DNA of 64,000 nt from Melastoma dodecandrum (lineage: Eukaryota > Streptophyta > Magnoliopsida > Myrtales > Melastomataceae): positions 699,501 to 763,500 of the forward strand of contig JARUPY010000602.1 of the NCBI GenBank assembly GCA_029817715.1. Reading direction: 5' to 3'. Of this stretch, positions 5,215 to 60,673 are shown one piece after another. How positions within the stretch are numbered: position 1 is the stretch's first letter; each line of letters starts with the position of its first letter. A program made the translations under genes and the position numbers. A model generated the notes under the pieces. The model worked only from the letters and a program-made list of their open reading frames with translations, was not told the DNA's origin and ran no database searches.

Positions 5215-6752
5215 GTTGAACAGGGAGGATCGGTTGTTTCCTTGAATCCAGCACAAATAGCCTTCAAGACACCAGTTCTCTGTAATTTTCCTTGGATGGA
5301 GAGAAGACAAAAAGAAGAAGCATGAAAACAAGTTTTCAAGATTATGCTCGTCCATTGTTTCCCTTCTGACAACATTTTCTTTCACTGCGTTGATCGATGT
5401 TCAGTCTGACAGCCAGCACCAAAGGGTATACCTCGATACTGAGCGGTATACCTCGATGAACATCCCTCAATCTCTGGGACCAAGAGAAATGACTGGACGA
5501 AAAAACAATGGAAGCACCTGAAGTTCCTGTTCTGCTTTGAAGAGTGGATTCTCGACATCAGCTTCGAGCAACCAACCCGGCAATCCGATCTTGTCTTCAC
5601 TCACCGATTCCTTTAATAAGAGGAATGCCCGGATTGTAGTATTCCACACAGGTTTCATCATATGAGGAAGTTTAGCAGCACATACGAATTCGAATCCGCT
5701 GGCTTAGATGAGTGGCTCTTGGCTCACTTCCTTGAGAAGGGCTTATTTATTGTAACTAAGAAATGAGAATTGTTGACCCATATGATCTCGGAATCACCCA
5801 TGCATTGCTTGATTTTGTCGAGAGGCAAAATCTGGTTTAGAAAAAGTGCCTGATGAGGAAGAGAAACATAGTAGACTAACAGAAAATATTCTAACCATGC
5901 TGGAATTCCAAGAAAAGGATGTTACCAGGAGATTTGATCACACCCTCTGCACAATCCTTGCTGTACTTCTTCTCCTTCATGGAGCACCTGATTTGGAAAT
6001 CAGTGACAGTCCCACCAAACCCAAAAGCGATTGCTCTCATTAGCAACACAATGAACACAAAGCTGTCTCAGGTTCTCAAACACCACATCCTTCCCGTCGT
6101 AGTCTACTCCAAAGTCCTGCTCTGGATCAGGTGCGCAGTATCTCCCGTGGTTTATGCACTGGGACTTGCATTGATTACTGAGCTTGAAAGCCTCGGGGCA
6201 GTACCAGGTAATGTAATGCGGAGTGAACCGTGGGTAACTCCCCTTCTCGAGGGCCTGTGCGTGGCCTCTAAAATTGTTGACAAAGTCCATCTGATCATCA
6301 CATCGAATTCCGCACTCATCTTCCCTACTTATCCAGAGCTCGTACTCCACCCTTTCATCAGGGTAGGGGTTCGATTCCCTCCAGTCTAACTTGATGAGAA
6401 TCTCATCGCCTTTCTGCAAAGCTTGCTTCAAGCTTTCACCAAAAGAGTGACCAATGAGTGCGGATGGCACTTCAATCTTCTCTATGTATCCGTCCATGCC
6501 AGTACTCTCATCGGGTGAATCCATGGTTATGAGAGGCCCCTCTACGTTACCCACCACTATAACTGCAGCAGCTCCTGCTTGGTGACCATTCCACACCTTC
6601 AACGCGAAATAGCATTTCTCGTTATGTAAACCGAAGGCTGAGGGAGATCCACAAGCTGAAGGGCAAGGTTGAGTCCTTCGCAAAGCTGAGGGGTCTCGAC
6701 ATTGAAGTCCATCCTCACTACACCGTCTGATCCGATCCCGATCGTCAGACAA
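5215..6752 (-). pseudogene. Vacuolar sorting receptor (VSR/BP-80) pseudogene
   Basis: Minus-strand remnant of a vacuolar sorting receptor, the type-I membrane cargo receptor that sorts proteins from Golgi/TGN to the vacuole. The longest piece (6000 to about 6620) carries the PA-domain end ([30 protein letters not shown]) and the central luminal region (YPDERVEYELW, FTPHYITWYCPEAFKLSNQC, CINHGRYCAPDPEQDF). Near 6006 a 2-base deletion after WVWWD breaks the frame; the match resumes in another frame ([17 protein letters not shown], about 5945-6005). Further pieces follow: EADVENPLFKAEQELQ (about 5500-5560), TAQYRG, then after a GT-AG intron LQRTGVLKAICAGFKETTD (about 5220-5290). The N-terminus, EGF repeats, transmembrane segment and tail are not found. 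Retained intron-like gaps show a genomic duplicate, not a processed copy. Confidence 0.88.
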
Positions 6753-7518: not shown

Positions 7519-9330
7519 ATGGAGTTCAAGTCTGCTGTTGATGTCCCCAGGGGAGTGCTAATCGGCTCCACCTCTTCCATCCATTGCGGTGATACAATCC
7601 GCCTCGGGTTATACCGGAGTAAGAACAGGGGTAGCCTTTTTTCTGTCGTTAATTTTAGATCAGTCTATCAGTTCTTGGGAGTTCTGAAGTTTTCCTTGTT
7701 CAGGAGTTTCTCCGGGCTCTGCTGCTTGTTCGGTGACTTCCCAGTGTATGGTTCTTCGACCAGACAGATCAAGGACCAGTCCGGTTGTCGTAGCTGAAAT
7801 TTCGACAGTTCCTAGTTTATATCATGTTAATGGGACAAATGGGGTGAACCCGAGGCTTCATTCGAGAGATTCAAGAGTGCTCGATTCGTTTGACGATGAG
7901 TACGGAGGGGTGGTTGTGAATCCGGACAGATTGCCAGCTGAACCGGATGCTTTCGTTCCCCTGCTTCGTGACTCCCTGTCACACTGGAAGATTCAGGTAA
8001 CTATCGTGTCTTATTGTGTAATGGCCTTGAGCAGTGCAGTATGTTTTTGCCGGTTCTTTTTAGAGTATGGAAATTATGGACTATTTCCACACCACGATTC
8101 TGGCATGTCTGTAGGGGAAGAAGGGAGTTTGGCTAAAGTTGCCCTTGGAATTGTCAGAACTAGTCCCCATTGCAGTAAAGGTAATAATCTTCACCTCTAC
8201 TGACGTAACCGCTAGTGATGTTCTGGGTTGCATTTGGTTCAAATCTCTGGTGATCACAGGAAGGATTTCAGTATCACCACGCTGAAAGAGAACATGTAAT
8301 GTTGACCTGTTGGCTACCTGAAGGACCTTGTATGCTTCCTGCTAATGCTTCTCATCTTGTTGGCGTGGGCGGCTTCGTTGTGAATGACAAGAACGAGGCG
8401 AGGCAGAAAATTTTGATCTCTTGAGCTGATCGAACCATATTCTCCTAAATTCTAAGACTCCATCTAATAATTAGTTGTTGTCCTTGCCATCAAATTATGA
8501 CAGGTTCTTGTTGTGCAAGAGAGGTACTGTCCTCCGGCATTCACGAGGCTGTGGAAGCTACCGACCGGATTCATTCAGGAGGTACATGCTTCCATCCTTG
8601 AATATATGTTCAATGCTGAAATATTGCCTAGAAATTCTCGATTGAAAAAAACTTAAATGGTGGCAGTCCGAGGAGATTTTTGACGGAGTTGTAAGAGAAG
8701 TCAAAGAGGAAACCGGTGTAAGAACCTACGTACCGCTTGATTGATACAGATTCATCGTGAGTTTTTTATTAAAGCAATTTGTTCCTTTCTGGGTACGCAG
8801 GTGGAAACAGAGTTTGTTGAAGTGATCGCCTTCAGGTGAAACCTACGACCTGGTCTCATCGTTCCTATCGTCACTGTTGTAAACTCCCCTAATCATATGC
8901 CTTTGTCTTTCCAGGCACGCACACCACATCGCCTTCGAGAAGTCGGACCTGTTCTTCATCTGCATGTTAAGGCCTCTCTCAACGCAGATCTTTGTCGATG
9001 ATTGCGAAATCCATGCTGCAAGGGTAACGTTTCTGTTATCCTTTGGCCCCATACCCCATATTCTCGGTTTGTCTATCAAATGACTGACCCTTAACATTTT
9101 ACTCCCCGAGCCAGTGGATGCCATTGGCCGAGTTTGTTGAGCAACCGCTGACAAAAGGAGACGGGATGTTCAAGAAGGTCATCGACATATGCCTAGCACG
9201 GCTCGGCAGGCGATACTGCGGGCTGTTCCCGCATCAGGTTGCATCCAAGTTCGAAGGGAAGGAGTCGACTCTTTATTTCAACGTCCTACAGGCAGAAGAT
9301 GATTACAACTGCGGAACTGGGGGAAGCTGA
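7519..9330 (+). CDS. NUDT8: Nudix hydrolase, NUDT8-like
   Basis: Split gene for a Nudix hydrolase, an enzyme cleaving nucleoside-diphosphate derivatives. Inferred exons: 7519-7630, 7704-7996, 8115-8180, 8260-8397, 8504-8581, 8667-8717, 8801-8835, 8915-9023, 9115-9330 (365 residues). The Nudix box is complete across two exon junctions: G225-x5-E231-x7-R239-E240-V-K-E243-E244-T-G-V. The plant NUDT8-type N-terminal region (FDDEYGGVVVNPDRLP, WLKLPLELSELVPIAVKEG, FQYHHAEREHVMLTCWLPEG) and C-terminal HAHHIAFEKSDLFFICMLRP also fit. Two oddities: the first 60 codons need a 73-base intron (7631-7703) or a later start at 7748, and the intron at 8398-8503 begins with GC instead of GT. The physiological substrate of this subgroup is not clear from sequence. 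Confidence 0.87.
8398..8503 (+). other. GC-AG intron of the NUDT8-like gene
   Basis: Exon ends AACGAG and the intron starts GCGAGG and ends ATGACAG before GTTCTTGTTGTG. Protein continuity (VVNDKNE joined to VLVVQERY) fixes both borders, and no in-frame GT donor exists nearby. GC-AG introns are a known minor class in plants. Confidence 0.75.
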
Positions 9331-10458
9331 AATGGTCTTAGCGAAGGATTATGCAGAGGCTAACCCTTTGTTGGATTTCAACCGCAGAGAGACGATAAGT
9401 CGCTGTATATAAGCTTTAGGCATTAGCCAGTTTGTTTTGTAAATCCAGCTGTGGAACCCCTCAATGTTCTTAAATCATGTTATTTGCAAATCATCTGATC
9501 ATATTGATGCCAGTTGCTGCTGTCAACACCCCCCCCCCCAGTTGACAGGAGAAGGAAACTTTTTAGCTTTTTCTCGTGATCAGTGCAACCCAAAAAAGGG
9601 ATCAACTTTACAGTCAAGTCAAACGGATCAAATTGAGTGACCGGAATGATAATTTGTGGCTTACATGAAAAACAAACAAGATGGTGTGGGGATTTTTCAT
9701 TGGCCATCAAAGGAGAAGGGTTATTAGTTAAAACTCCCTTTCATTTGATTTGATTGAATCCAAGAAAAAGACTGCATCTTGACCTATGTTGCCGTTCCTT
9801 TCCTTAGACCCAGTTCTTGTTTCCTGCTCTGGAAGTTAAAAAGGAAGTAAAAAAGGGGTCAACAGTTGTTGATTCCTGAACCACCCCCCCCCCCCCCCCT
9901 CTGAAATCCCGTGCCCTGTTCTGCGTCCCCCGTGTTCGGACAACTCTTGAATTGAAGCCTATCCCCGTGGAGAAGTGTCGGATCCGCTGAATTCTCTTCA
10001 CCGGTTTCAGTTTTGGCCTGCTTGTGAGTGTTCTCGTAGTCGTACCCACGTCTTGTTTCGTTGTTCAGGATTCGCTCTGGCTTGTCTTTTAGGGTTCTGC
10101 GCATCTCTTTCTTGAACAATCTCCATCTGTCTTTTTAGTTGAGGAACTTTTCGGTTGATTAATGGGCCCGAAAGTTTCTGTGTCGAAGTGGGTCGGGACC
10201 TGGCTTTAGTCAGTTCTATGTTTCCTTCTTGCACCGAATTCTTTCTCCATTGAAGCCTGCAAGTCTGCCACTGGTGTGTTTGGGTGGGGGAAAGCTTGTG
10301 GGCATTTTCTCTTTGCGGGCGGCTGTAGTTTCCGCTTCTACGAAACTAAGTTAGCTGTAACCCAATTCTTGTTTTCGGGTTCTGTTCAGCAGCTCGGGAA
10401 AAAAAAAGTTCCCGGAGGGGGTAAGGCAGTTTCCAATTACATTGACGGTACGGGTGAG
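9331..10458. other. Spacer, NUDT8-like 3' end and DeSI-like promoter/leader
   Basis: No gene seen. Runs of C at about 9530-9539 and 9883-9899 are homopolymers prone to assembly error. The last few hundred bases before 10459 are open in the DeSI frame but have no ATG and probably represent promoter and 5' untranslated sequence. Confidence 0.4.
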
Positions 10459-13400
10459 ATGCGGCTGTTTCGGCAGAGTTTGTCATCTAGCTCTGCGAAG
10501 AGGGTAACAGAGAACAAGGTTCAGTTGCATCTCAATGTGTATGATCTCACCCCGATAAACAACTACCTGTATTGGTTCGGCCTCGGGATATTTCATTCTG
10601 GAATAGAAGGTATGATAGTAAGTTTTTGTTGGTGCTTCTTCAAGCAAATTTTTTTGGCCTGGATTGGATAATGATCATAAAATCACTGGGATGCGGGAAA
10701 ATGCCTGGAAGTTTGTGCTACTTGATGAGGATTTTATTGTAAGGAGAAAATTTTCTGCTAGTACGTGATGATTGCTCGGTGTTCTCTGTCGGGGTTGAAA
10801 AATGTAGGATATCTTCGTTCTTCTGAAATGAAACCTTGAAAAGATTATTGGATTTTTGTTATTGTATAGCGGAAAATGAGTTCTCATCATGCTGGTTTTG
10901 TATCACTATCCAACCACGTAATAATCCTCGATAACCAGCACCCCTCGCCCATAATTTTCCTGACATAGTCTTACCGTTATCCTTGTCGAATAGTATTTAT
11001 ATTCTTATGTCAAGCTTTTTTAGCCTTTTGAAATGCACTAATCCCCTGGGACATTGTCTTGCCTTCCAAATCTTGTAGCTCATGGTCTAGAATATGGTTT
11101 TGGTGCTCATGAATGCTCAACAAGCGGGTTATTTGAGGTCAACCCTAGAAGCTGCCCTGGATTTATCTTCAGAAGATCCGTGCCCTTGGGCACTACCACC
11201 TTGTCAGGTTCGGAATTTCGCCTATTCATGGAGGACTTAGCTGGTAAATATCATGGGAATACGTATCACTTGATCTCGAAGAACTGCAACCATTTCACCA
11301 ACGAAGTAAGCATGCAGTTAACTGGGAAACCGATACCTGGCTGGGTGAACAGGCTTGCTCGATTAGGTGAGACGAATAAAGTTTCCATGAGAATGCATAT
11401 AATGTCTTGACTATTGATGGAGTCATTATGTTCTTCGCGGAATGCAACTCTGCCCTATTGCAAGTCAATGGTTGTCTTCGTTGGCCCTCTTTTTCTGGAA
11501 ATCTACTGCTCCATTTTGGTTTGTACGTGCTTAGTATTCAGAAAACGGTAGTTCCTTGGAGTGCAAACAAATTCTTGGGAACAAATAGTTTTTCCATTCG
11601 TTTCCTACGTCTTGGATGCTCGAGTCCTGATATTTATGAGGAAAAATGTAATTGATCCTTTTGTTTTTATAAATTTATCTGAGGAAGCGTGATGAAGTCA
11701 GCTTATTGAATTTGAGCCATAGCACCGCCATAGATAGTCGTCTGATAATGCACCAATGTCATCTTTAAGAATCCATATCAGGAAAGACTAAAATCGAGCC
11801 ATTTAAAAAATATGTAGGATCTAAGCGCCCAATGATAAAATGGATGGGATGGAACCACGATTGGTTTAAAAGCGTTCCGAGTTCTTGAACAAATTCCTCC
11901 TCTTGGCATAAGATTAAGAAGTATGCCTCCCGATACAGGATTTGCTTCTGTTGTTAAATGCCCGGCCAGAACCACACGTGCAAGTTTCTATGCATGCGGC
12001 TTGTCGGGAATTGTTCCGCTTAGCTTCAGCGTTGTCTTATGCAAGATGTTTGTACGCGCGCCTTCCGGCCTAGCACGCGCGCAGCGGTTCGGACGACCCG
12101 AGGATCCGGGCCCGCTCCCCTAGAGTCTTCCGGTCGGCGTCGCGACTCGAGCGTCGAACGCTGCGGAAAAGACCAGGGTGGTCCCTCCTTCGATTCCTGA
12201 CCGGGTCTGCCCAGACTCTTCGCCGATCGTCTCCATGCTCCTTAAGAGGCGACTGGCGAAAAGAAACGCATGGTCCGAGGAGGAAGCTTCAGGAGGTTCT
12301 AGGAGCGGCTCGTGTCGCCATCACCCATCCAAAATGACTTCGTAAAAAAAAGGGTTGTTAATTATACGGAGTCGCCACCGACTTAGTTTTAAAGCTTGGT
12401 TTAAGTCGGAAAACCAGAGTAGGGTTCGGGGATCCCTAATTACTAACTCTTACACTGAACATGCGAAAAGGGTGGCGTTTGCTCCAAAAGTTTGCTTTTG
12501 GTTAACGGGTGTTGGACCCGATCCGGGCATGACTCCGGACTCATGTCAATGTTTTACGGGCGTTGGACCCGATTCGGGCCTTTTGGGCCCGAATTCATGT
12601 GTGTTGGTTTAGCAAACAACATGCGACGATAAAATCCTAAAAGCCTAATAGCATGTACCGCAACCACAGATCAAGTATTTAGATGAAAGGGAACGAGGAA
12701 GGGTGGTGATCGTGAGCCTTGGGCCCACGACCCGTTACATGTGGAAATAACAAAAGATCAGGAGGCCCGCACCTCCCCCATGTACCTGAGATGACGGTTG
12801 TGGCCGCTTTATTATCTTGTCATCGCGATTTTCATACACGCGGAAAGATCCACGCGGTTTGATACACGCGCCTTCATGTAGCCGCTTTCTGAGGGGGGTT
12901 GGTTGGCAATCATCCGTCCCTGCAGCCGAGGAGTTCGATTTTGTCGGACTCGAAGAGTGCCGCAACCCGACGAAATCAAAGTGAGGTTGTAGCTCCGTCT
13001 CCGTAGGTCAATGGCCGAAATGGACGCTGCGTCAACGGGGGTCCAGTAGCCGAGGTCGGGGAGACGCCGACGGAGAGGGTTGAAGGGGTAGTGACGTTTG
13101 GGAAGTGAGTTCGCCGCTGTTAAATCCGGAGACGTCGGGGGGCTGGACGGTCGTTGCTGGACCTGAGGGAGGCCCCAGGGGAAGGTGGCTGAGATGGAAG
13201 GCCGCTTTGGGGCAGGAGCGTCACGGTGGCGGGATGGTCTCGCCGCCGGTTGCTGGATCTGCGGGCATCTACAGGAGATGGGTTTGCCGTCGGTTCGAGA
13301 GAACACCGGGAGGACGGATTGTCGTTGCTGTCGGTCTTGAAAACGTTCAGGGACTGTGAGACCAAGAAGACTTGAAAACGCCACTGCTTAACTTGTTAGC

Positions 13401-16400
13401 GCCCAAGAGAGGTGGTTTCTTCGCTGCCGCCGGATCTGAGGTGGCGGGAAGACATAGATCCGTTGCCGCCGAGTCTGGGGTGGTCTGGGAAGACTGATTC
13501 AGGCATGTCATCGTGGAAGGCGTGGTGGCCACTGCAGGTCCTGAGTTTCACCGCTGCTGGGCGTTGGGGAACGCCGAGGATGACGGGTCACCGTTTCTGG
13601 TTCGGAGAACGCCGAGGAGGACGCGGTTGTCGCTGTTTGGTCGCATCTCGACCTATCTTGGGAGAGTCTTCAGATTTTGTTGATTGCTTCGGAGACCTTG
13701 GCTGGTGGATGGCGTAGACGCAGTAGAGAGGATCAGGGACTTGTGTTTCCCTCGTCCCCTCCTCCCATTCTCTGAAGGTGAGTTCTCTTTGTATGTAGGT
13801 GGTGTCCTTCTGTCTCCTCTTTCTGTCGGTTTGTTATATTCTCGGTGATGATGATGTCTATCTCCGTCTGTCTGAGTCCCCCCTCTTTTTTTATTTTTTT
13901 TTTGTAAAATGTCTATCCGTCTTTCTCAGTATCTTCTTGCTGCCGTTTCAGTCGCTTATTTTTTAATTCAATGTCTTCTTTCTAACGGCATGTCTTTTCT
14001 TTTTCTGCTTCCTCCTACAAATGTTTCCTAGTTTTGGGGCAAGTCTCATCCCCACCATGACATAATGACGTGCTGTCCGTCCAACCATCGACAATCCTTT
14101 CAATATTCAAATCATCATCATGTATGATTTCTTTAGTAGTAGTAAGCTTAAGTTCCTTGTATAGCTGAACTTTTGGCTTCTGTCGCATACCCCAGTGCTG
14201 GTCTTTTGTTGTCCGAACGGAATCGCCCTTGTGACGCCATGCCGACAAATGACATTTGTGGACACCAACAACTGAGAACTCTTCGTCGTTGTTGGATTCC
14301 TGATCCAGGTTCTGCGAAATATGCGGGGAAAGAGCTAAAAAATGTTTCTGTGGTCGGGGACAGCAGATTCATGGAGGAATGGCATGATGAACGAGGCATC
14401 GCCAACGCTAATATGAGCTTGTCCGAGAGAGGCGCCGGATGCTAGATAAACCAATCTTCAACATCGGGGAAAGCTTGCAGATTCTTTAGTGTACCCTCAG
14501 ATTATATTGAAAAAATGCTAGTGTAAAGGAAAATGCCACGACGTAGTCCAGTCTTTCAAACTATTGGATCCTTTGCTAGGCCCTGAAGGAGGGAATATCC
14601 CCTCAAGAGAAAGTTCAGAAGAATCGGGCGGGTAGACCACGCTTGAGTCCTTCCATGCTTTGCATTCAATTCATAAGATTTCTGCAATTTATTGGATTTG
14701 ATCTTGTCCTGAAAGAGATCTCGGTTTGTTGACGGACTTGTCTCCTCTTCTGCTCATGGACATTCACTGCAGAGACCAATGTACTAGAAAAGAGCCACCC
14801 ACCATGCAAGAGAGACTAGATTAGCAATCCACAACATGAACTTGACTTAAACACATTCCTTTGCTTCCCCACCATGAGAATTTGCCAGTTTACATTGAAA
14901 AGAATTCGGGAAATGGACAAAAGACTGTTAAGAATGATCACAGGACTTCCCTTGGCTGTGTATTGCCGGGATAGTTGTTCTGATTCGTTTCCATCCGCTC
15001 CATCAGTTTTGTTCGGATCTTGAAGGAGTGGGCTGTCAGTTCTACCATACTTTGTCCTGTAAGATGATGAAATTTCACACCAGAAAGGCAGGCATAACTC
15101 GCGATTTGGGGTTCTACAGTTTGCCCCTCCTTGTGAGAGAATTTTTTTTTGAAAAATTTTCGCACAAGGATGTCATAGATACCCCAAATCGTGAATTCGA
15201 GGTACTCTTGATCGACCTGCACTTTGGTCACTTTGGAATTATAAGAAGAAAATTGTTGGTCATAAATGAGACCACGTGAACTACGGGGATAATCAAACTT
15301 GTATTGCATTAATGTGTGACATGTTTTATTTTGATAAAACATAAAGAGATTGTTTCTGAGTAAGTTTGGTAAAGGACTTCTTGACTTCTCTCATGGTTCA
15401 CTCTTATTTCGGAAAGCCGTCTTGATTGGATTTCAAAATTCCTTTGACTTGGATGCTCATGTGCCGATCAAATGAATTATTGTCTGATTGGAATGTGGTT
15501 CTGCCATAAGACTACAAAAAATGAGTTTAAGGATTTCATCAAAAGTTGTAGAGATTTCACCGTCCGAGCAAATTCTCCATTTTTTCAGATAGTGGGCCAG
15601 TCGAGGCGTTCCGTCAGGATTGGCAAATGGCTCATGTGTTTCTTCGAGGATGTTTTTTCTTATTTTTTTTGGAATAACACCTTTGCTCTTGCGACCATCT
15701 ATGTTGGCCCTGGTGTTTTAGTTTTACTCTTTTGTTTTGCGCTTTTCTCTTGAAGACTTCAGTCTTTGCGCTGATTTTGCTTTTTCTTTGTCAACGTGCA
15801 GGATATGCCCCACATTTGTTGAAAATGTTTTCTAGGATTTTGTGGGAACTTATTGAGCTGATGGAGATATTTTGTCCTTAGGAGCAACTCGACTGGCTCA
15901 CAAATCTATTAATGGTACCTCTTTGCTCGGACCTTGAGGAAGTGTCATCTCTACATTTCGCCACCTCTGACTTTACAAGTTTTTTGGGCAACTTTGATGC
16001 GAGGTGATCTGTAGACTCTGTGAGAGTGGTGAACACAGAAACTTTGGTTCTGAGGCAAACAATAATTGACGTGTTTGGGGTAGAGAAATAAAGAGAAGGT
16101 TTGATATCATCCCGGTTTGAGCATCTTTCGTCAAAGGATTCTTCGTCCGTCCAGACGCTTTTATAGGAAATTCTCACGGTGTTTGCACTTGTCTCTCAAG
16201 GGTAAGTGTTTGGGGATAGGCTTGCCTTCTCCACTCTCGCTCAGAAACATTTTATTAAAGATAATTTTGAATTATATGCAAATGAGCACACGAATGTTTA
16301 AGAAATTAATAGGTTTAGATACTCAAACCTCTGTGGTGCTCTTGTGCGAACTTCAAGGGGTGCACTTTCATGCCCCAGTCATGTTCTTTGAGATTAGAAT

Positions 16401-19400
16401 CAAACGGCCTCCACCCGACCACCCTCGCCGTTGCCCAGGAGTTTGTACCGTACTGTGTGGATGTCCATGTGCCTACACAGTTGACAACGGACAAAGACGA
16501 AGTTAGTTTATGTACTTCGACTCTTGTTTAGGGAGATAATAATGAAATAAAGTATCCGCTGGGGAGATGAGATGGATATGTCCGTCTCGATGATAGTTCT
16601 GGAAAAATATGCTTGTATCCTTGTTGAGGAATGCGACGTATGTAATCAACTCCAGCTTGAATGAAGGCAGGACTCCAGCTGGGGAAATGGAGATATGACT
16701 CCATCTGGGGAATTATGAAAAATTTTGTTAGAGAGCAGTGTAGATGATACTCCCTTTTGGTAGAATCATCTTTGGTTATGACAAAGGTAATCTCGAAGTT
16801 TTGGTTCGAAATTTTCCACCCAACCACCCGCGCCTTTGTCTGTAATGCAGGATGTTCATGTGCCTACACTCGCCAAAGGGCGGATAACAAGTAAGCTCGT
16901 GTAACTTGTTTATCTTAAAACGAAGTTTGCTCATGTAACTTCATTTATATAAAAGGCAAAGTAGAGTTTTTGATACTTCCCTTTTTGTGTTTCGTCATTG
17001 CATCTTCGTCCGGAGGAATCAAAGGATTGACGAAGTAGTTACTCTTGTCTGACGTCTGTTGTGTAAGGAAGTTCATGTACCTATCAAACAGATGACGAGA
17101 AACAAGTTAGTTCGTGCGACTTGTTTCTATTAGAGTGAGAATGAAGTTTGCTCGTGTAACTTCATTTGTAAGAAAGGTGAAGTAGAGTTTTGGTACTTCC
17201 CTTTGTGTTTCGTCGTTATGTCTTCATTCGAGGGAGATGAAGGTTTGACGAAATTGCTGCAAGACTTTGGCTTGAAGCTTTGCCGCCCTGCCACCCTCGC
17301 CTTTGCCATAGGAGTTTTGTACCATTCGTGTGAGGAGCTCTTGTACCTGCCCACGAGACAAAGGATGTAAACAAAATAAGCTCATGTAATTTCGCTTAGT
17401 TTGATGAAGAGAGTAAAGACTGTGTGATTCTCCCTTTTCATGTGTATTGTAAGTGTTCATTGCCCCAGTTCTTTGGGGATATAAAGAAGTTCGTTGACGA
17501 AGATTGTTCTGAAGCTTTGGTTTGAAGCTTTATTGTTTGTCTTCATTGTCTGCCTAGGGCGCTCATGTAGTCTTGTTGATGACATTTGTTTTGAAGCTTT
17601 GGTTTTCACTGTTTGCCTGGGACGCTCATGTATCCCTTTCATGTAATTTGTGGTGTTGTTGATGACATGTTGCTCCAAAGCTTTGGTCCGAAATATGTTG
17701 ATTGTCTGTCTAGGATGTTCATGTACTTCTCCTTTTCATGTGATTCGTTCGTTTGTCAACGGGGAATTAATCTTGCCCCAGGATAGCTTGGAGGTGATGC
17801 CCCAGGATTGCTCGGAGATATGTCTATGATCACTCAGAGATTTGCCCCTGGATCGGTCGGGGATTTGTCCCGGATCGCTTGTAGATTTGTCTATGATTAC
17901 TTGGAGATTTGCCCCAGGATTGTTCGAAGATCTGTCCCATGATCGTTTGGAGATTTGCCCCGGATTGTTCACGTAGTGTCGTCTTCATTGTTTTGCCAAC
18001 GAAGGCTGTTTTGAAACTTTGGCTCGAAACTTTTCCACCTTACCACCTTCGCCTTCGTCGTCTGTCTAGGATGTTCATGTACCTATAAGACAAGCCAAAG
18101 GGAAAAACAAGTGAGCTCATGTAACTTGTTCTGCAGAGAAGGTATTAGTTGATGAACGAATACTCCCTTTCATGTAGATTGTCGTTTTGTTGACAACGAA
18201 TGATATTTTGACGCTTTGGCTCAAAATTGTTTCCAGGCTTTGGCTCGAAACTTTACCACCCTGCCACCCACGCCTTCGTCAACATGCGACAAGGGCTAAA
18301 ATAAGTGAGCTCATGAAACTTTTTTTTTTTTTGCAAGGAAGAATTGATCAAGGAATGGATACTCCCTTTCATGTATTGTAATATCAAAGAGTGTCTACGT
18401 TGAATGTTTGTGACGGTTCTCTTCGATAAGATGATTGACTTCGGTTGAATGCCCCGGATGTGCAAAGTTGATGGCTTTTTGTGGTGCGCGTGGGCGATGA
18501 CCACAGCTGTGGTGGGCGGGCTAGGGGATTGGCTGCTCATGTGGTGGGCCGAGATGCTTGTTTCTCGTCAATGCGTGAGGCGGTGACTGACCTTCTCCTC
18601 TTTTCTTTGGTGACAGTTGGTGGTTGACTACTGTCGGGATGACCACTTGGGTGCCGTAAGGAATTCAAAGGAAATTACCCCAGTCGAAGTATGCGTCGCC
18701 GTTTGGTAGACATCATGCTCTTTGGTGTTGGTAAGCTGTTGTGTGAGCTCCAGACGAGTCATCTTGTACTGGTTCACTGCCGATCGAAGAATATGGTCCA
18801 TGTTCATATTTTTGTCGTTGGGATGCTGTGGATCCGACATTCGTCAAGTTCTTGTTGTCGGAGAAACGATGAGGTTGAATGAAGTGTTCATATTTGGGGG
18901 TTGAATGCTCGCAGCTATCCTGATCTCGCGATGCCGTTGTGAATGATGGGGTTTGCCCCTTGTGCTGGATTATGTTATGGAGTTATAAGCTGGGAAATTG
19001 CCCCTGTTTGGAATGATGTTTCCATTGGTGCCGAGGTTGTGCCGACTGATGATGTAGTGAGATTGCATCTGTTTCTTTGGAGCGATTGTTGGATCAGCAG
19101 GGCGTGATGTTCCCAATGTATCTGATTGTAGCATGTCCATGAATGGCTCTATGGGCTTGTCATTAGCTCTGATGTTGACTGTGGTTGGCTGATGAGATGT
19201 AACCTCCTTGGGGTTTTCATGTTGTCGTAGATTTGGCTTTGGACTTGGCTATCGTTGAGGAATCCTTGGTCTTCATGTCGTTGGATATACGGTTCTGGAC
19301 CTTGGTAGCCGTCAAGCATCTTTGGTCTCATGTTGTTGCATGTACTATGGTAGCCGTCGAGTAATTTGTGATTTTCATGTCTTGCCCCAATTTCTTTTCG

Positions 19401-22400
19401 AAGAGCCATGTTGGAGAATTAAACTTTATAAAGAAAGTAGAGAAAAGGTTTAGATTAGTATCATGCAACAGTGTAATTGATGCATGATAAATTTGTGATG
19501 TAGTTTAATCGCACTCATGTATGCATAAAAGTATGCATTATGTAATTGTAATTGTAAATGAGAAGTCATGATGCAATGGAGCAATTTCTGTGAATGACAT
19601 GATAATGTAACTACTGCAATCGAACATACACTCATGTAGTCATGCGAATACATGAATACAGTAAGCAATAAAATAGGTAGCGAATGTATGAATGCAGTAA
19701 GCAATAAAATAGGTAGGGATAGGAGAAATGAAGGTTGTTGAAGCCCATTGTAATAAACTCCATCAAACTGCAAAACGAGAAGTGTTAGTTTTATAGTCAT
19801 AGCAGACAAAGCGTACCTGACACCTGTCCCTGCACAAGTAGCAGTCACTCAGTAACAGACAAATGCACGTGCGGCGTCTGGTACCTGTAGTGAGCAAACA
19901 ATGCTAGACTCTCGGATGAAGGCTTCTAAACCTCCCTCGGACTGAGGGAAGCGGGGCCCCGGCCAAAAACCATACCGCAAATAGCAGCAAGCCGAGCCTT
20001 GCGGTGACCCCCTAAAAATCCTAGCCCCGGGTTCGGGCACACCTAGATATGCCTAGGAAAGCAGTAAACAAACACAACCATGAGAGCATACAAAGGGCAC
20101 CGAGCCAAGCAATTACACACGCAAACAAGAACTCTTCTCCGCATGTGGATTAAAAATGTAAGAGCGTTCGAAAGGAATCCACATGTCATTTCCCCAGCGG
20201 AGTCGCCATCCGGGATGTACGCGCGCCTTCCGGCCTAGCACGCGCGCAGCGGTTCGGACGACCCGAGGATCCGGGCCCGCTCCCCTAGAGTCTTCCGGTC
20301 GGCGTCGCGACTCGAGCGTCGAACGCTGCGGAAAAGACCAGGGTGGTCCCTCCTTCGATTCCTGACCGGGTCTGCCCAGACTCTTCGCCGATCGTCTCCA
20401 TGCTCCTTAAGAGGCGACGGGCGAAAAGAAGCGCATGGTCCGAGGAGGAAGCTTCAGGAGGTTCTAGGAGCGGCTCGTGTCGCCATCACCCATCCAAAAT
20501 GACTTCGTAAAAAAAAGGGTTGTTAATTATACGGAGTCGCCACCGACTTAGTTTTAAAGCTTGGTTTAAGTCGGAAAACCAGAGTAGGGTTCGGGGATCC
20601 CTAATTACTAACTCTTACACTGAACATGCGAAAAGGGTGGCGTTTGCTCCAAAAGTTTGCTTTTGGTTAACGGGTGTTGGATCCGATCCGGGCATGACTC
20701 TGAACTCATGTTAATGTTTTACGGGCATTGGACCCGATTCGGGCCTTTTGGGCCCGAATTCATGTGTGTTAGTTTAGCAAACAACATGCGACGATAAAAT
20801 CCTAAAAGCCTAATAGCATGTACCGCAACCACAGATCAAGTATTTAGATCAAAGGGAACGAGGAAGGGTGGTGATCGTGAGCCTTGGGCCCACGACCCGT
20901 TACATGTGGAAATAACAAAAGATCAGGAGGCCCGCACCTCCCCCATGTACCTGAGATGACGGTTGTGGCCGCTTTATTATCTTGTCATCGCGATTTTCAT
21001 ACACGCGGAAAGATCCACGCGGTTTGATACACGCGCCTTCATGTAGCCGCTTTCTGAGGGGGTTGGTTGGCAATCATCCATCCCTGCAGCCGAGGAGTTC
21101 GATTTTGTCGGACTCGAAGAGTGCCGCAACCTGACGAAATCAAAGTGAGGCTGTAGCTCCGTCTCCGTAGGTCAATGGCCGAAATGGACGCTGCGTCAAC
21201 GGGGGTCCAGTAGCCGAGGTCGGGGAGACGCCGACGGAGAGGGTTGAAGGGGTAGTGACGTTTGGGAAGTGAGTTCGCCGCTGTTAAATCCGGAGACGTC
21301 GGGGGGCTGGACGGTTGTTGCTGGACCTGAGGGAGGCCCCAGGGGAAGGTGGCTGAGATGGGAGGCCGCTTTGGGGCAGGAGTGTCACGGTGGCGGGATG
21401 GTCTCGCCGCCGGTTGCTGGATCTGCGGGCATCTACAGGAGACGGGTTTGCCGTCTGTTCGAGAGAACACCGGGAGGACGGATTGTCGTTGCTGTCGGTC
21501 TTGAAAACGTTCAGGGACTGTGAGACCAAGAAGACTTGAAAACGCCACTGCTTAACTTGTTAGCGCCCAAGAGAGGTGGTTTCTTCGCTGCCGCCGGATC
21601 TGAGGTGGCGGGAAGACATAGATCCGTTGCCGCCGAGTCTGGGGTGGTCGGGGAAGACTGATTCAGGCATGTCATCGTGGAAGGCGTGGTGGCCACTGCA
21701 GGTCCTGAGTTTCACCGCTGCTGGACGTTGGGGAACGCCGAGGATGACGGGTCACCGTTTCTGGTTCGGAGAACGCCGAGGAGGACGCGGTTGTCGCTGT
21801 TTGGTCGCATCTCGACCTATCTTGGGAGAGTCTTCAGATTTTGTTGATTGCTTCGGAGACCTTGGCTGGTGGATGGCGTAGACGCAGTAGAGAGGATCAG
21901 GGACTTGTGTTTCCCTCGTCCCCTCCTCCCATTCTCTGAAGGTGAGTTCTCTTTGTATGTAGGTGGTGTCCTTCTGTCTCCTCATTCTGTCGGTTTGTTA
22001 TATTCTCGGTGATGATGATGTCTATCTCCGTCTGTCTGAGTCCCCCCTCTTTTTTTATTTTTTTTTTGTAAAATGTCTATCCGTCTTTCTCAGTATCTTC
22101 TTGCTGCCGTTTCAGTCGCTTATTTTTTAATTCAATGTCTTCTTTCTAACGGCATGTCTTTTCTTTTTCTGCTTCCTCCTACAAATGTTTCCTAGTTTTG
22201 GGGCAAGTCTCATCCCCACCATGACATAATGACGTGCTGTCCGTCCAACCATCGACAATCCTTTCAATATTCAAATCATCATCATGTATGATTTCTTTAG
22301 TAGTAGTAAGCTTAAGTTCCTTGTATAGCTGAACTTTTGGCTTCTGTCGCATACCCCAGTGCTGGTCTTTTGTTGTCCGAACGGAATCGCCCTTGTGACG

Positions 22401-23630
22401 CCATGCCGACAAATGACATTTGTGGACACCAACAACTGAGAACTCTTCGTCGTTGTTGGATTCCTGATCCAGGTTCTGCGAAATATGCGGGGAAAGAGCT
22501 AAAAAATGTTTCTGTGGTCGGGGACAGCAGATTCATGGAGGAATGGCATGATGAACGAGGCATCGCCAACGCTAATATGAGCTTGTCCGAGAGAGGCGCC
22601 GGATGCTAGATAAACCAATCTTCAACATCGGGGAAAGCTTGCAGATTCTTTAGTGTACCCTCAGATTATATTGAAAAAATGCTAGTGTAAAGGAAAATGC
22701 CACGACGTAGTCCAGTCTTTCAAACTATTGGATCCTTTGCTAGGCCCTGAAGGAGGGAATATCCCCTCAAGAGAAAGTTCAGAAGAATCGGGCGGGTAGA
22801 CCACGCTTGAGTCCTTCCATGCTTTGCATTCAATTCATAAGATTTCTGCAATTTATTGGATTTGATCTTGTCCTGAAAGAGATCTCGGTTTGTTGACGGA
22901 CTTGTCTCCTCTTCTGCTCATGGACATTCACTGCAGAGACCAATGTACTAGAAAAGAGCCACCCACCATGCAAGAGAGACTAGATTAGCAATCCACAACA
23001 TGAACTTGACTTAAACACATTCCTTTGCTTCCCCACCATGAGAATTTGCCAGTTTACATTGAAAAGAATTCGGGAAATGGACAAAAGACTGTTAAGAATG
23101 ATCACAGGACTTCCCTTGGCTGTGTATTGCCGGGATAGTTGTTCTGATTCGTTTCCATCCGCTCCATCAGTTTTGTTCGGATCTTGAAGGAGTGGGCTGT
23201 CAGTTCTACCATACTTTGTCCTGTAAGATGATGAAATTTCACACCAGAAAGGCAGGCATAACTCGCGATTTGGGGATCTACAATGTTTCTGCAGGTTCTA
23301 TGTTCAATTGCGTACTTCCAAGCAGTATTCAGGTTTCTGCATTAACAAATCGGCCTGATAATCCAGAAATCTGTGGTAAGTCAGCCATATTCTGAAATGT
23401 CAGTGTTCATTAACTTAAGATATCTTTTGCCGATTCTCAGTCAGAGATCTGATCTTATTTTCACTGTTATATAGCATTATCTCTCACAGTTTTGCAATAT
23501 GTCTTGAGCAGGTGATGACTCCGACTCAACCATATCGACATTGACCGCGGACAGCGAATTGGACGAAGTAGACCATCACCTGTTGACTGGCCCCAGCTTA
23601 AACGTGGTCTATGTGAAAGAAAACTGGTGA
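10459..23630 (+). CDS. DeSI-like (PPPDE) cysteine isopeptidase, split by an intronic retroelement
   Basis: Exons 10459-10609, 11079-11366, 23295-23375 and 23512-23630 join into 212 residues. The product is a PPPDE-superfamily protein like Arabidopsis DeSI-like proteins, papain-fold thiol peptidases predicted to remove ubiquitin or SUMO. The catalytic pair is present: His46 in GLGIFHSGIE and Cys120 in LISKNCNHF; other family blocks are LHLNVYDLTP, EYGFGAHE, CPGFIFRRSVPLGTT and GKPIPGWVNRLARLG. The first Met (MRLFRQSLSSSS) matches the family start. Length is normal. All four exons and their splice sites are intact, but intron 2 is about 11.9 kb because an LTR element (12051-23282) sits within it, leaving 12 bp between the element and exon 3. 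Whether the full transcript is still made cannot be told from sequence. Confidence 0.9.
12046..12050. repeat. Target-site duplication, left copy (ATGTT)
   Basis: ATGTT directly precedes the TG end of the left LTR and is repeated directly after the CA end of the right LTR. This proves that the two LTRs bound a single insertion. Confidence 0.95.
12051..15118 (-). repeat. Left LTR (3' LTR in element sense)
   Basis: 3068 bp, beginning TGTACGCGCG and ending GTTCTACA on the plus strand. It is GC-rich in its left 1.8 kb and AT-rich on the right. Its open frames (for example 12812-13384 minus and 14173-14445 plus) recur in the other LTR but match no known protein. Confidence 0.95.
15120..15132 (-). 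promoter_or_regulatory. Polypurine tract of the LTR element
   Basis: Minus-strand AAGGAGGGGCAAA abuts the left LTR; plus-strand DNA synthesis would be primed here. It supports minus orientation. Confidence 0.75.
16395..18310. repeat. Degenerate internal repeats of the LTR element
   Basis: At least five diverged copies of a unit of roughly 100 bp or more share blocks such as CCACCCTCGCC, TGTTCATGTACCT and AGCTCATGTAACTTG. Spacing is irregular. Variable tandem arrays inside the untranslated interior are a known feature of Tat/Ogre-type elements. Confidence 0.65.
20192..20208 (-). promoter_or_regulatory. tRNA-Arg primer-binding site of the LTR element
   Basis: The plus strand reads CCCCAGCGGAGTCGCCA, the 3' end of a plant tRNA-Arg acceptor arm plus CCA, so the minus strand is its complement. 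It lies 7 bp inside the right LTR, the expected primer-binding position for a minus-strand element. Confidence 0.82.
20216..23282 (-). repeat. Right LTR (5' LTR in element sense)
   Basis: 3067 bp, a near-identical direct copy of 12051-15118 at an offset of 8164-8165 bp. It ends GATCTACA and is followed by ATGTT. One G is missing from the run at about 21060 relative to the left copy, which shortens the 190-codon minus-strand frame there to 169 codons. Confidence 0.95.
23283..23287. repeat. Target-site duplication, right copy (ATGTT)
   Basis: Right copy of the ATGTT duplication. Only 7 bp (TCTGCAG) separate it from DeSI-like exon 3. Confidence 0.95.
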
Positions 23631-24377: not shown

Positions 24378-25521
24378 ATGGCGGCAGCTCATGTTTTCTT
24401 CGTCGCGATAGTCTGCTCATCTGCAGTCTACATCTCTAATGCAACCAGGTGCGGCCATGGGGGTCCAGAAGTCCAGTCACCTTTCCATTTGATAAACAAA
24501 CAGCCTTGTCATGATGCCCTCGGCTCCGGTTATGCAATGAAGTGTGCTGAGGGAAATTCCACCACCGTGATCAGCTTCCCGTCCTACGGATATCTTATGG
24601 TGAAGTCAATCGACTATGAAACAAAAAGGATTGACCTGATCGACCCTAAGAGTTGCATCCACGAAGTCTTCCTTGGCCTCGACCTTGCAAACACGCCATT
24701 CCAACACTTCTATCTTCTCAAGAACTACACCTACCTCAACTGCTCCTCCTCGCCGTCGTCGCCTGTTGATCAGGTCCTACAATCCTATGACGAAATCCCG
24801 TGTATGAGCGGGGCAGACCACAAGGTGTACACGGTGGATGTTTCAATGGAGGTGCCATCCAATTGCAGGGCAATCAAGACAGTCGCGATCCCTTTTGGTT
24901 ATAGCCCTTACATATCAGACAACACCTTTGGGCTTGCATTGACTTGGGATTCCCCTCCCTGTGATGGATGCAACAAACAAATTGCAGATCATCATCGTCA
25001 TCATCAAGGTAAGAAATTTGTCATATGCCACTTGCTTGTCTCAGGGATATTAAGATTTGACTTTAGTATTGTATGTCAGGTGGGCAAAAGAATAGGCATG
25101 TAGGAATCGTTCATAAATCAAAAGGGGGGGGGGGGGGGCTTTCGAATAAAATAAAGTTGAAAATCTAGACTGGCCATTGATTGGAATTAGAATCAGAAGG
25201 CATTGCATCTGCAGAATGTTGATGATGTTGACTATAAATAAAAAAAAAAATGCCCCCAAATCAATCAACACCCCTTAATTTGAGGCATGTTCTGCTGAGG
25301 CAATTCCAATTACCATAAATAAAGCAACAAGGGACGAATGATCTAACATTATTATATGTTGTTGTTCTTCCCCTTTCAATAATGCAGTTCTGGGGTGGAG
25401 CATTGTCCTTCTGTGTGTATGCTTAGCCACGGCAGGCCTAGCTGCTGTGAAAATGTATGCATCATATGTTAAGAAACAGGGAGATAACAACGCCAAGGAG
25501 AATGAAAAATTGCTGAACTGA
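24378..25521 (+). CDS. GUB_WAK ectodomain membrane protein (ATL20/21- or LRK10L-like, no RING or kinase)
   Basis: Two exons, 24378-25008 and 25388-25521, joined in phase, give 254 residues. Residues 1 to about 22 form a signal peptide. The ectodomain has the cysteine pattern of the galacturonan-binding GUB_WAK_bind region (RCGHGG-EVQSPFHL, GYAMKC, VKSIDYETKRIDLIDPKSC), then a WAK-associated-like part (SNCRAIKTVAIPFGY, LTWDSPPCDGCNKQ). Exon 2 encodes one transmembrane helix (GWSIVLLCVCLATAGLAAV) and a short Lys/Glu-rich tail ending KLLN. Family members usually continue into a RING-H2 (ATL20-22) or kinase (LRK10L) domain; none follows here. It may be a receptor-like co-protein at the plasma membrane or cell wall, or a truncated relative. 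The ligand is unknown. Confidence 0.8.
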
Positions 25522-28559: not shown

Positions 28560-31500
28560 GTGGAAGAGGAGGAGGACACGGGGGTTGTCCGAAGAGCAAT
28601 GATGAGTTTAGGACAGAGGAAAGAAGAGAGTGGGAGAGGAGAGGAGAGGAAAGGAGGGTCGTGCGTGAGTAGTGTTTTTTTGGCAAAAAGTCATGCCTGA
28701 CTCTGTTCTGCACTGTTCCCTTTTCCCTTTCCTTTCCCTTTTTCAATTTATCATCCTAAGAGCCGAATCGAGGAAGAAGAAGAAAACAAAGGAACGAGCA
28801 AAGAAAGGAGTTAAGCCTCTTTTTGACGTTTTGCTTTTTCCCGGTTTGGCTGGGTTGAATAGGGTCCGAGTTTGACCACTGTTAGTAGTTTGGAAAAAGA
28901 GGCAAAGTTAAAACAGGGTTCGGTAAAATAGATTTATTCCGAGATGGTATATGTCAAGCAGAAGTTTTCTACGTTTGTGATATTGACTTATAAAAATGTA
29001 AGTTCGGTCATCAACAAAATTTAATATGAATAAAGTAAAATACAAAGTATAACCCAGTTGGTTATAAACGTAGTTGATTGCTATTTTGATTCGATTGTGT
29101 TTTATTAGAATGATGAACGGTATTAAAAAGTGGCTCAAATAAAAAAAAAAAAAAAAGAATGAGGGGCTTTGAAATTTCAATCCAAATCTATTTGGAATTT
29201 CCCAAAGTCCAGGCTTTGGTCAGTCGTGTCCCCTTGCCATGCAACATTGTTTCTAACCCCGACACACGACATTGAATTGACTTTGGTTGTAAGAAAAAGG
29301 GGAAAAAAAAATAGGCAGAAGAAGCCAACACCACCCAGCATTTTTTTTAGGTGGGAAACAAAATAAAAATAATGTATTTGAAATTGGAAAAGGGGATATC
29401 CCAATTGCAATAATTACTGCCGCATGGTTTTCTTTTTTCATGTATATTTTTTTTAAAATTCCCAAGAAGAGGGGGTTGCTTTTTTTTGCTTTTTGGGGTG
29501 GGTTGAGATATCATTGAAGACTGATGGGATTTCTTTCTCAATAGAAAGAAGTAATAATGAGGTGTCTATCGATGATGATGAAGGAGGAGACAAGAGGACA
29601 ACCATCTCGCCGATGTTTTGTCCGTAAATTAGATGGCAAACGGACGGCTGAGATCAGCTTTATCTTCCCCACAACCTTTGCTTCCATTTATTTTGGATAG
29701 GACCACAGCCAATGTGAGTGACTAAACAAAATAAATCCTCCTCTGTCCCCCTCCCAGCTATGTTTATACAGTCGGATGAAAAAGGAACGACACGAAGAAC
29801 ACACAAGATAAGCCTTGAATATCAGTGAAAACCACCCTTCCTCCTCCCCCTTCGAGCTCGCACCCAACATGTGTGAATGCGTTCGTTTGTCCGAGTTATA
29901 TTATTTTAATTTGAGACGATAGATTTTACTAAGAAGGAAAAGAATATTCAACGCTGATATCAACAGGAGGTAATAATATCTAAATAATATTATTATTAGG
30001 GAGTGGGTGGGTGGGATTTTCTATACTTTTTATTATTATTATTATTATTTACGAGATCGTAGCGTGAAATGATTAGCCGGTGGTTAATAGAAAGAATTAG
30101 ATTGGGGGGGGTAGAGGCCGCCCTCGTGTCTCTCGCTGGTTGTCTCCCACACGCACGCATTTTAAAAAAAAATTAAAAAAAAAACGGGCTAACAGATAAC
30201 GAACTCTGATCAGCCATGATCTCCACTTAAGCCAAGGGAGGAGGAGGACAAAGTATTGATCTAAAAGTAGAATGGAGATGAGATCCCCACCCCCAAAAGG
30301 TTAGGTTTAAATTGGAATAGAATAAAGAAAAAGGAGGACACGACAAGAAATGGTAATGGGGCCACCATGCATGCATGATTATGGGGAGGGGGTGCAAAGG
30401 GTTGCCCCCCCACCACCCCTCTTCTCATTCATTCATTGCCCCCCCACCTCCTCCTCCTCCTCAAGTACCCACGTGTGACCAGGTGTCTTCATTATCATAT
30501 ACTTACAATTATTTTGATAAGCAAACACGAGGTACGGACATCTAAGAGAAAGCGTTAATGTAACCGCTGTGCCTTTGTGTGATCACATGGGCACATCGAT
30601 GCCAGTTGCCCCAGTTGATTAGGTTGTTTGATATTCCCGATGGAGTTAGAGAGAGTGGTGGCTTGGGCATGTCACGTGAACCATCCCCTCCCCCCCTTTT
30701 ATTAAAAATAAAAACGCAAAATATTTATTTATAGCCTCAACTTTGAACCAATCTATTTTGTCATTAGTTTAGTTTGTTATATAATTTTGTCACCAACTTT
30801 TGTTTTTATTTTCATTTTGGCCAATCACGAATTTCTTCTAGCGAAAGCCAAACAAGACTTTAATAGACAATTTTCATTTATCGACTAAAAAGAAAAAAAA
30901 AATTAAAAATAGAAAATAATATTGAAACCTTTTATTTGTTTTTTTATTATAAAATTTTGATGAACAAATCAAGTGAATTGGAAGTCGAAGTTAACGATAG
31001 TTGCTGATGTTGTCAAAAAATATGAAAAATCGATTAATGTCGGATGATGTTCTATTAGGGGGCGACTATTACGGATAAAGTGGATTATGAGACGAATGAA
31101 TGAGATGTCGAAACTCCACTATTATAGGACACATGTTAGACTATATTAAGACCCTGTTTGGCTTTCGCTAAAAGAAATTCATGATTGGCCAAAATCAAAA
31201 TAAAAACAAAAGTTAATGATAAAATTATATAACAAACTAAGTTAATGACAAAATAGAAAGTTCGTTCAGGTCATAATAGTATATTTTGCATAATAAAAAA
31301 GAAGGAAGGAAGAAGAAAGAAATCTAACCCCGAAGACACGCGCGACAACAGCCTCCAAAATCCAGAAATGTTTCGACAGGGGGTCAAAAGTATCTCAAAC
31401 CCCCTCGCCCACTGTCTGTCCGAGAATGAATGTCTTCTTTTAAAAAAAAAAACAAATTGGAGAATTAAACATCGGTCGTTGTCGTCGGCCCCACTAATTA

Positions 31501-59296: not shown

Positions 59297-59749
59297 GTTG
59301 CAGAGATTTTAGTGCAGCTGGATTTCATTTCCGGGAGAATTTGCTTAGTTAGAAAAATCTGGGTGAGGTGGAACCACTCATACGCCTGGTTGCCTTTGCT
59401 GATGTAGACTGAAACATATTTCCGATGATAACCACTCGTACGCCTGGTTGCCTTTCTGGCCGGCCTTTAGCTTTGTCCAAAAGTTTGAGGTTGATTTGCT
59501 TTTGTTTTGATAACTTGGGGGGAAACCCTTTCTGTTTGTTTCGTCACGCGGTAGAGACCAAATGTGTTAAGATAGAAAGGGCAAGGTTATGATGATAAAA
59601 CGATGATTGTCGAAGGGTTCTTGAATCATTGAAGATGACATCAAACTAGATTAAGCCCACCATTGTCTTGTCCTTTACAAGTACAGAGGTTCACCCACAC
59701 ACACACCCACAGAGCTGGAGTTTAAGCCCATGTTGTCGTTCTTCGAGTT

Positions 59750-60673
59750 CAGGCATAGTCCTGATTTGGGACCGGGGCATATGACCCAATGAAGACGTCC
59801 CCGTAGACAAGCCCCGCGAGCGCCCCCCCCCACAAGCGGTCCGGCCCAATAAATCCATATCTCCGAGTAGTCCCCGCTCACCACTGCCGGCCCGAATGAC
59901 CTTGCTGGGTTCATCGATCCGCCGCTGAAAGGCCCAGCCGCCAGGATGTTGGCCCCGACGATGAACCCGATCGCGATGGGCGCGATTGTCCCGATCGATC
60001 CCTTCTTGGGGTCGGCCGCCGTGGCGTAAACCGTGTACACGAGCGCGAATGTTATCACGATCTCCATCACGAACCCTGCCACCTCGCTCACCCCGGATGC
60101 CACCCCATGAGTCGGCACACTCTGTGATCTTGCACAGCATAAGGTACATGAGAAGTAGCAACTGCATTTCGGACATATCAAATATTGCCTGAGGGATAGT
60201 ACCGCAGCGCCAGTGACACATTTGAGTAGCAGGCAGGCGACGATGGAACCAAGGCACTGGGCGATCCAGTAGAAAATGCCGGTGAGGATGGTGATGTTAC
60301 CGCCGACAGCCAGCCCGAGAGTGACGGCGGGGTTCAGGTGGCCTCCGGAGATGTTGGCAGCAACGGACACACCCACAAACAGGGCAAACGCATGGGCGAC
60401 AGCCACTGCAACCAGGCCAGCAGGGTCCAGGGCCGCATCAGATGTAAGCTTACCTGATAAAAAAAGACAAACCCAAAACGGAAACAACGTATGTAATGAA
60501 ATCAAATGAAGGCCGAAAGGATGGACGCATCATGGCATAATATTACCATAAGCAATTGCAGATCCAACCCCAGCAAAAACAAATATCAGGGTGGCGATGA
60601 ACTCGGACAGGTAAGACTTTAAAGATGAGAAGCTGAAGGAATCACCCAAGCTCCCAAATCCCACCTTCACCAT
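59750..60673 (-). CDS. Tonoplast intrinsic protein (TIP2-type aquaporin), frameshifted near the C-terminus
   Basis: Minus-strand exons 60547-60673, 60203-60453 and 59750-60121. A six-helix vacuolar-membrane aquaporin moving water and, in TIP2 proteins, ammonia. Start [20 protein letters not shown], then [11 protein letters not shown]. Both pore motifs are present (Asn83-Pro84-Ala85 in [12 protein letters not shown]; Asn197-Pro198-Ala199 in [12 protein letters not shown]), with selectivity-filter His63 and Arg200. Intron 2 (60122-60202) is 81 bases, in phase and free of stops. In the last helix a run of nine G (59823-59831 as C) holds one G more than the family reading needs. As written, translation leaves the frame after GPLVGG and ends at 59675; in the other frame the normal tail ([14 protein letters not shown], ending QDYA) follows, with its stop at 59750-59752. 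Confidence 0.9.

Follow-up and report, generated by a model that had tools for sequence, protein, structure and literature searches.

In a 64,000-nucleotide window of Melastoma dodecandrum DNA (assembly GCA_029817715.1, contig JARUPY010000602.1, positions 699,501 to 763,500 of the forward strand), we examined a DeSI-like (PPPDE) gene whose second intron holds a long terminal repeat (LTR) retroelement that stops just short of the next exon. All coordinates given here count from the first letter of the window. The gene lies on the plus strand, and its four coding exons, when joined, translate as an open frame of 212 amino acids (aa). Exon 1 (10459 to 10609), placed from the joined frame and from homologues, carries the conserved His of GIFHSG, and exon 2 (11079 to 11366) carries the Cys of NCNHF, its acceptor being set by homologues that read ...GIEAHGLEYGFG. 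Exon 3 (23295 to 23375) follows from the joined frame and agrees with a Melastoma candidum protein, P0001, and exon 4 (23512 to 23630) includes the stop codon TGA, read from the sequence at 23628 to 23630. The product matched the Pfam profile PF05903 with an E-value of 6.1e-48 (162.9 bits, cut-off 29.2).

Our homology query was a 208-aa draft in which exon 2 began at 11091 and AHGL was therefore missing; the homologues place the start at 11079. The search returned 1,924 proteins at E ≤ 0.001, and among the 120 of these that were listed the best two were P0001 and P0002 of M. candidum. P0001 was 96% identical by the search measure and 98% by alignment, P0002 was 88% and 89% identical by the same two measures, and the third-best of the listed matches reached 72%. 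H46 and C116 (numbered on the draft), which we take to be the catalytic residues, were invariant across nine aligned sequences. The frame joins exactly at 11366/23295, and homologues match across that junction. The open 212-aa frame and the two invariant residues uphold the description of the exons as intact in the initial annotation of this DNA. We also observed that P0001 ends in LNVELCK, where the window frame reads LNVVYVKENW, perhaps because the gene model for P0001 splices at a GT within exon 4. The available part of PMC9911893 places a whole-genome duplication at a synonymous divergence (Ks) of 0.256 to 0.280, and P0002 may be a duplicate from that event.

Self-comparison revealed one long direct repeat in intron 2, with copies at 12051 to 15118 (3,068 bp) and 20216 to 23282 (3,067 bp) that are 99.28% identical. 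The repeats start with TGTA and finish with TACA, giving the TG...CA ends of LTRs, and the junctions read ATGTT|TGTACGCG at the left and GATCTACA|ATGTT at the right. The two ATGTT copies (plus strand, 12046 to 12050 and 23283 to 23287) form a 5-bp target site duplication (TSD). By our own arithmetic, chance would produce a perfect 5-bp match at two given junctions about once in 1,000 cases, and in addition to this match the repeats stop exactly at the junctions and have TG...CA ends. Long direct repeats with such ends and a 5-bp TSD are two hallmarks of LTR retrotransposons, and the surveyed plant elements in the part of PMC6317226 available to us had a 5-bp TSD in 93.4% of cases. A primer-binding-site-like stretch, TGGCGACTCCGCTGGGG (20192 to 20208), lies 7 nt inside the 5' LTR, and a polypurine-tract-like stretch, AAGGAGGGG (15124 to 15132), adjoins the 3' LTR. 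Because both stretches are on the minus strand, the element (12051 to 23282, 11,232 bp) is antisense to the gene, as had been proposed, so that the left repeat is its 3' LTR and the right repeat its 5' LTR.

We thus confirmed that a single LTR element was inserted, antisense, 12 bp before exon 3, and the LTRs, TSD, and junctions bear out the 11.2-kb insertion first described there. The range originally assigned to the element, 11367 to 23294, is instead the whole of intron 2 on the plus strand (11,928 nt, with its donor at 11367). Rejoining the flanks reproduced the proposed empty site, ...GCAAGATGTTTCTGCAG|GTTC, and the intron before insertion would have been 691 nt long (11367 to 12050 plus 23288 to 23294). 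After the element, only the last 12 nt before exon 3 are native sequence, namely the right TSD copy and the remaining 3' splice site TCTGCAG (plus strand, 23288 to 23294).

The interior of the element offered no recognisable gag-pol. Of the stop-to-stop frames that overlap it, 32 reach 90 codons or more, and those lying wholly in the internal region encode at most 133 aa in the gene's direction and 132 aa in the element's. We scanned 10 of the 32 frames against Pfam (nine minus and one plus), and none scored above a curated cut-off; neither reverse transcriptase or integrase domains nor the additional RNase H domain of the Tat/Ogre criteria appeared among those 10. Matches to DUF3360 (E = 0.0011, 18.2 bits, cut-off 26.2), Phage_TAC_16 (E = 0.0057, 17 bits, cut-off 27), and PINIT (E = 0.11, 13.3 bits, cut-off 27) were read as chance. 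A protein search with a 190-aa frame of the LTR (12812 to 13384, minus strand) gave 275 candidates, not one of which reached E ≤ 0.001, Rfam at its gathering threshold gave no match between 8000 and 26000, and ARAGORN found no tRNA in the whole window. Degenerate tandem repeats occur at 13548 to 13623 (within the LTR), 17773 to 17970, and 19644 to 19716. Since decayed gag-pol in so young an element would still leave long frames, the element is best read as non-autonomous. It resembles LARD-type elements in its large size and in its long internal region without recognised gag-pol. It also shares a 5-bp TSD and some internal tandem repeats with the Retand elements covered in the available part of PMC11963269, although its LTRs, at 3.07 kb, exceed the 315 to 1,194 bp of the Retand clusters surveyed there, its repeats lie in the middle of the internal region and near the 5' LTR rather than clearly beside the 3' LTR, and the scanned frames supply no coding domain for lineage assignment.

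Over 3,067 sites, the two LTRs are separated by 15 transitions, 6 transversions, and a gap of one base; the Kimura two-parameter distance is 0.0069. At a substitution rate of 1.3e-8 per site per year, this corresponds to an age of 0.26 million years. In the part of PMC9911893 that dates the genus, M. candidum and M. dodecandrum are separated by a Ks peak of 0.023, set at 4.6 million years, and an earlier genus estimate of 1 to 2 million years is mentioned. Because 0.0069 is below 0.023, the insertion should be younger than the split of these two species if LTRs change at least at the silent-site rate; our own arithmetic puts its age at about 0.3 of the split, which would be 1.4 million years if the split is dated to 4.6 million. 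It is probably found in a single species or population only.

The LTR differences were unevenly spread. Twenty of the 21 substitutions fall within the first 1,770 bp (12254 to 13820 in the left LTR) and the last is at 15112, preceded by a 1,291-bp run without substitution, which would have a probability of 0.00019 if substitutions were uniform. CpG density is 72 per kb in the substitution-rich part and 32 per kb in the substitution-free part, a drop that may explain the clustering, but the first 200 bp, with 140 CpG per kb, are also without difference; gene conversion is another possible cause. The isolated difference (T at 15112 in the left LTR, A at 23276 in the right) sits at -19 of the exon 3 acceptor and creates no obvious branch motif.

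An insertion so close to an acceptor raises the question of where the branch point now lies. In the parts of PMC3017782 available to us, plant branch points are mostly 18 to 40 nt upstream of the acceptor with the consensus YURAY, the first AG downstream is chosen, AGs less than 12 nt from the branch are disfavoured, and mammalian AGs down to 4 nt from the branch retain some use. In the deduced empty site, CTTAT (plus strand, 12036 to 12040) stands at -19, followed by an AG at -14 and then by TCTGCAG, and by these position and AG rules it could have served as the native branch point. The native branch region was indeed displaced, as originally described: CTTAT is now 11.2 kb away, and the reasoning that exon 3 must use LTR sequence in its place was sound. 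At the LTR edge we found a candidate substitute, ATAAC (plus strand, 23258 to 23262), whose branch A at 23261 lies at -34; the native AG of exon 3 is the first AG downstream of it. Each motif has one mismatch to YURAY, CTTAT at R and ATAAC at the first Y; TRAY is present in the occupied site only, YTNAY in the empty site only, and TNAY in both, and the T content at -15 to -4 is 5 in either case. The candidate substitute therefore appears about as good as the motif it replaced and compatible with splicing, which is no proof of splicing and needs no special cause. The sequence does not show a splicing defect at this locus, and a clear one is rejected as a reading of the sequence alone.

Given this, we consider it somewhat better than an even bet that most transcripts are spliced correctly from exon 2 to exon 3 despite the insertion. 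We propose that a recent, apparently non-autonomous LTR retrotransposon entered intron 2 antisense, 12 bp before exon 3, and that U2AF and U2 would substitute ATAAC at the LTR edge, or some other adenosine of the LTR, for the lost branch point. The first AG that scanning then meets would be that of the unaltered TCTGCAG, and exons 2 and 3 would mostly be joined. A residual cost would come from the long, probably methylated intron, where some transcripts might read through or end and cryptic exons might be used; a close paralogue like the one in M. candidum, should the source plant possess it, might soften that cost.

Several observations weigh against this proposal. Strict YTRAY is found in neither allele, and the empty site passes YTNAY where the occupied site fails. 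As a background test, we attached the native 12 nt to the end of 60-mers drawn from the element and from elsewhere in the window, and many of these also offered TRAY with a clear path to the acceptor (388/1596 plus-strand and 288/1596 minus-strand 60-mers of the element; 1856/7506 plus and 1959/7506 minus of the host). TNAY was passed by 631/1596 plus and 626/1596 minus 60-mers of the element and by 3327/7506 plus and 3348/7506 minus of the host. Of eight further acceptors, placed by hand and by eye (two in the DeSI-like gene and six in a neighbouring NUDIX-like gene), TRAY was passed by only three and TNAY by four, so the motif test is a weak discriminator. Nor is exon 3 singled out within its intron: 33 sense-strand acceptors there pass the branch rule and 12, that of exon 3 included, also have at least five T at -15 to -4. 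The sense strand of the element, which is the gene's, further carries 5 AATAAA and 27 TGTAA, compared with 9 and 8 on the opposite strand. Finally, the full-length model of P0001, from a species that may lack the insertion, does not show splicing of the occupied allele.

The strongest alternative to correct splicing is a partial or full loss of exons 3 and 4, in which transcripts end or stay unspliced within the 11.9-kb intron; premature 3' ends there are a serious rival, and we regard such loss as possible, if rather doubtful. Directly after exon 2 the frame runs ETNKVSMRMHIMS-stop, ending 13 residues past ...RLARLG, so that, as had been anticipated, the protein would stop soon after GWVNRLARLG. 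The resulting 160-residue product would keep the conserved His and Cys and still matches PF05903 at profile positions 3 to 143 of 151; what it would lose is the stretch in which N, C, L, P, S, I, and Q residues are invariant across the nine aligned sequences, together with the C-terminal tail. The five sense-strand AATAAA (16087, 16546, 19667, 19703, and 19752) would provide sites for such ends, although hexamer counts of this size are no evidence of use, the other strand has more of them, and ATTAAA, AATAAT, and AATGAA are about equally frequent on the two strands. These sense-strand signals, together with 11 acceptor-like sites comparable to that of exon 3, also mean that the earlier assurance about polyadenylation was overstated, holding for the element's own antisense signals and not for the strand shared with the gene. 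A precedent comes from the available part of PMC10241880, in which Arabidopsis Pol II reads through heterochromatic transposable elements, cryptic 3' ends are suppressed via IBM2/EDM2/AIPP1, and premature polyadenylation in intronic elements is seen in epigenetic mutants. Those premature ends, however, arise in plants that have lost the heterochromatic marks or the protective pathway, and by analogy suppression of the Arabidopsis type may also act at the present locus. With a plausible substitute branch point present as well, the choice between an LTR-supplied branch point and loss of exons 3 and 4 appears narrowed, though not settled.

It is also conceivable, although unlikely, that exon 2 is spliced to an acceptor within the element, yielding chimeric transcripts with a cryptic exon. 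The left LTR edge is among the 12 sense-strand sites noted above, since a second copy of ATAAC (plus strand, 15094 to 15098) stands there and the following G completes an acceptor-like site ending at 15119. The antisense strand, however, gives 32 and 9 sites by the same rules, so these numbers are near background. We give still less weight to silencing of the gene by small RNAs, set off by transcription that starts in the left LTR and runs antisense through exons 2 and 1: the element's direction does run from its 3' LTR (12051 to 15118) toward those exons, but in the one LTR copy scanned, the right one, the minus strand contains no TATA[AT]A. Least credible of all is the idea that the outer LTR edge of this element family, which read antisense has a branch motif about 21 bp from the end and then an AG-free run, is a portable 3'-splice-site helper that makes near-acceptor insertions tolerable; we rejected any special design of this edge, given that random sequence from the window passes TRAY in 18 to 26% of cases.

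The setting of the insertion looks gene-rich, judging from neighbouring frames named by reading alone. These resemble an AP2/ERF factor (1178 to 2197), part of a vacuolar sorting receptor (6000 to 6752), a NUDIX hydrolase (8000 to 9400), a WAK-type galacturonan-binding protein (24378 to 25103), and a TIP aquaporin (59675 to 60505). The window also contains an inverted repeat (30752 to 30854 and 31155 to 31257; 103 bp, 92% identical, 300 bp apart) that resembles a small inverted-repeat transposon.

This event is ordinary in kind, an intronic transposable element that is possibly tolerated, and that kind is well known. By title, none of the papers from our literature search concerned an LTR element inserted immediately before a plant acceptor. 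The locus nevertheless amounts to a clean natural experiment, in which known sequence from a young insertion now stands in place of everything beyond -12 of a plant acceptor, and the tight 12-bp spacing makes it a good test case. Related plants without the insertion should exist, so that branch-point substitution and tolerance of a long intron could be measured at one locus.

Among known systems, the intronic retrotransposons tolerated in Arabidopsis through IBM2/EDM2/AIPP1 are alike in placing an LTR element in the intron of a working gene, where a long heterochromatic intron is transcribed and then removed; the chromatin state here is assumed by analogy. COPIA-R7 at RPP7 is reportedly one such tolerated element. 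Our element differs from these cases in abutting the acceptor, at 12 bp, so that the branch region was replaced too. Retrotransposons in the introns of maize waxy are likewise said to be removed with the intron, partly aberrantly and with altered splicing, although other element families are involved and splicing was measured there. A further parallel is the intron 7 polymorphism of Arabidopsis RPT5b, described in the available part of PMC3017782, where natural variation directly before an acceptor also alters a candidate branch point. At RPT5b a competing branch point is created by a single base, with a reported 25% mis-splicing, in contrast to the 11-kb insertion considered here, which replaces the region, and RPT5b is one of two partly redundant genes, a situation to which we liken that of the present gene.

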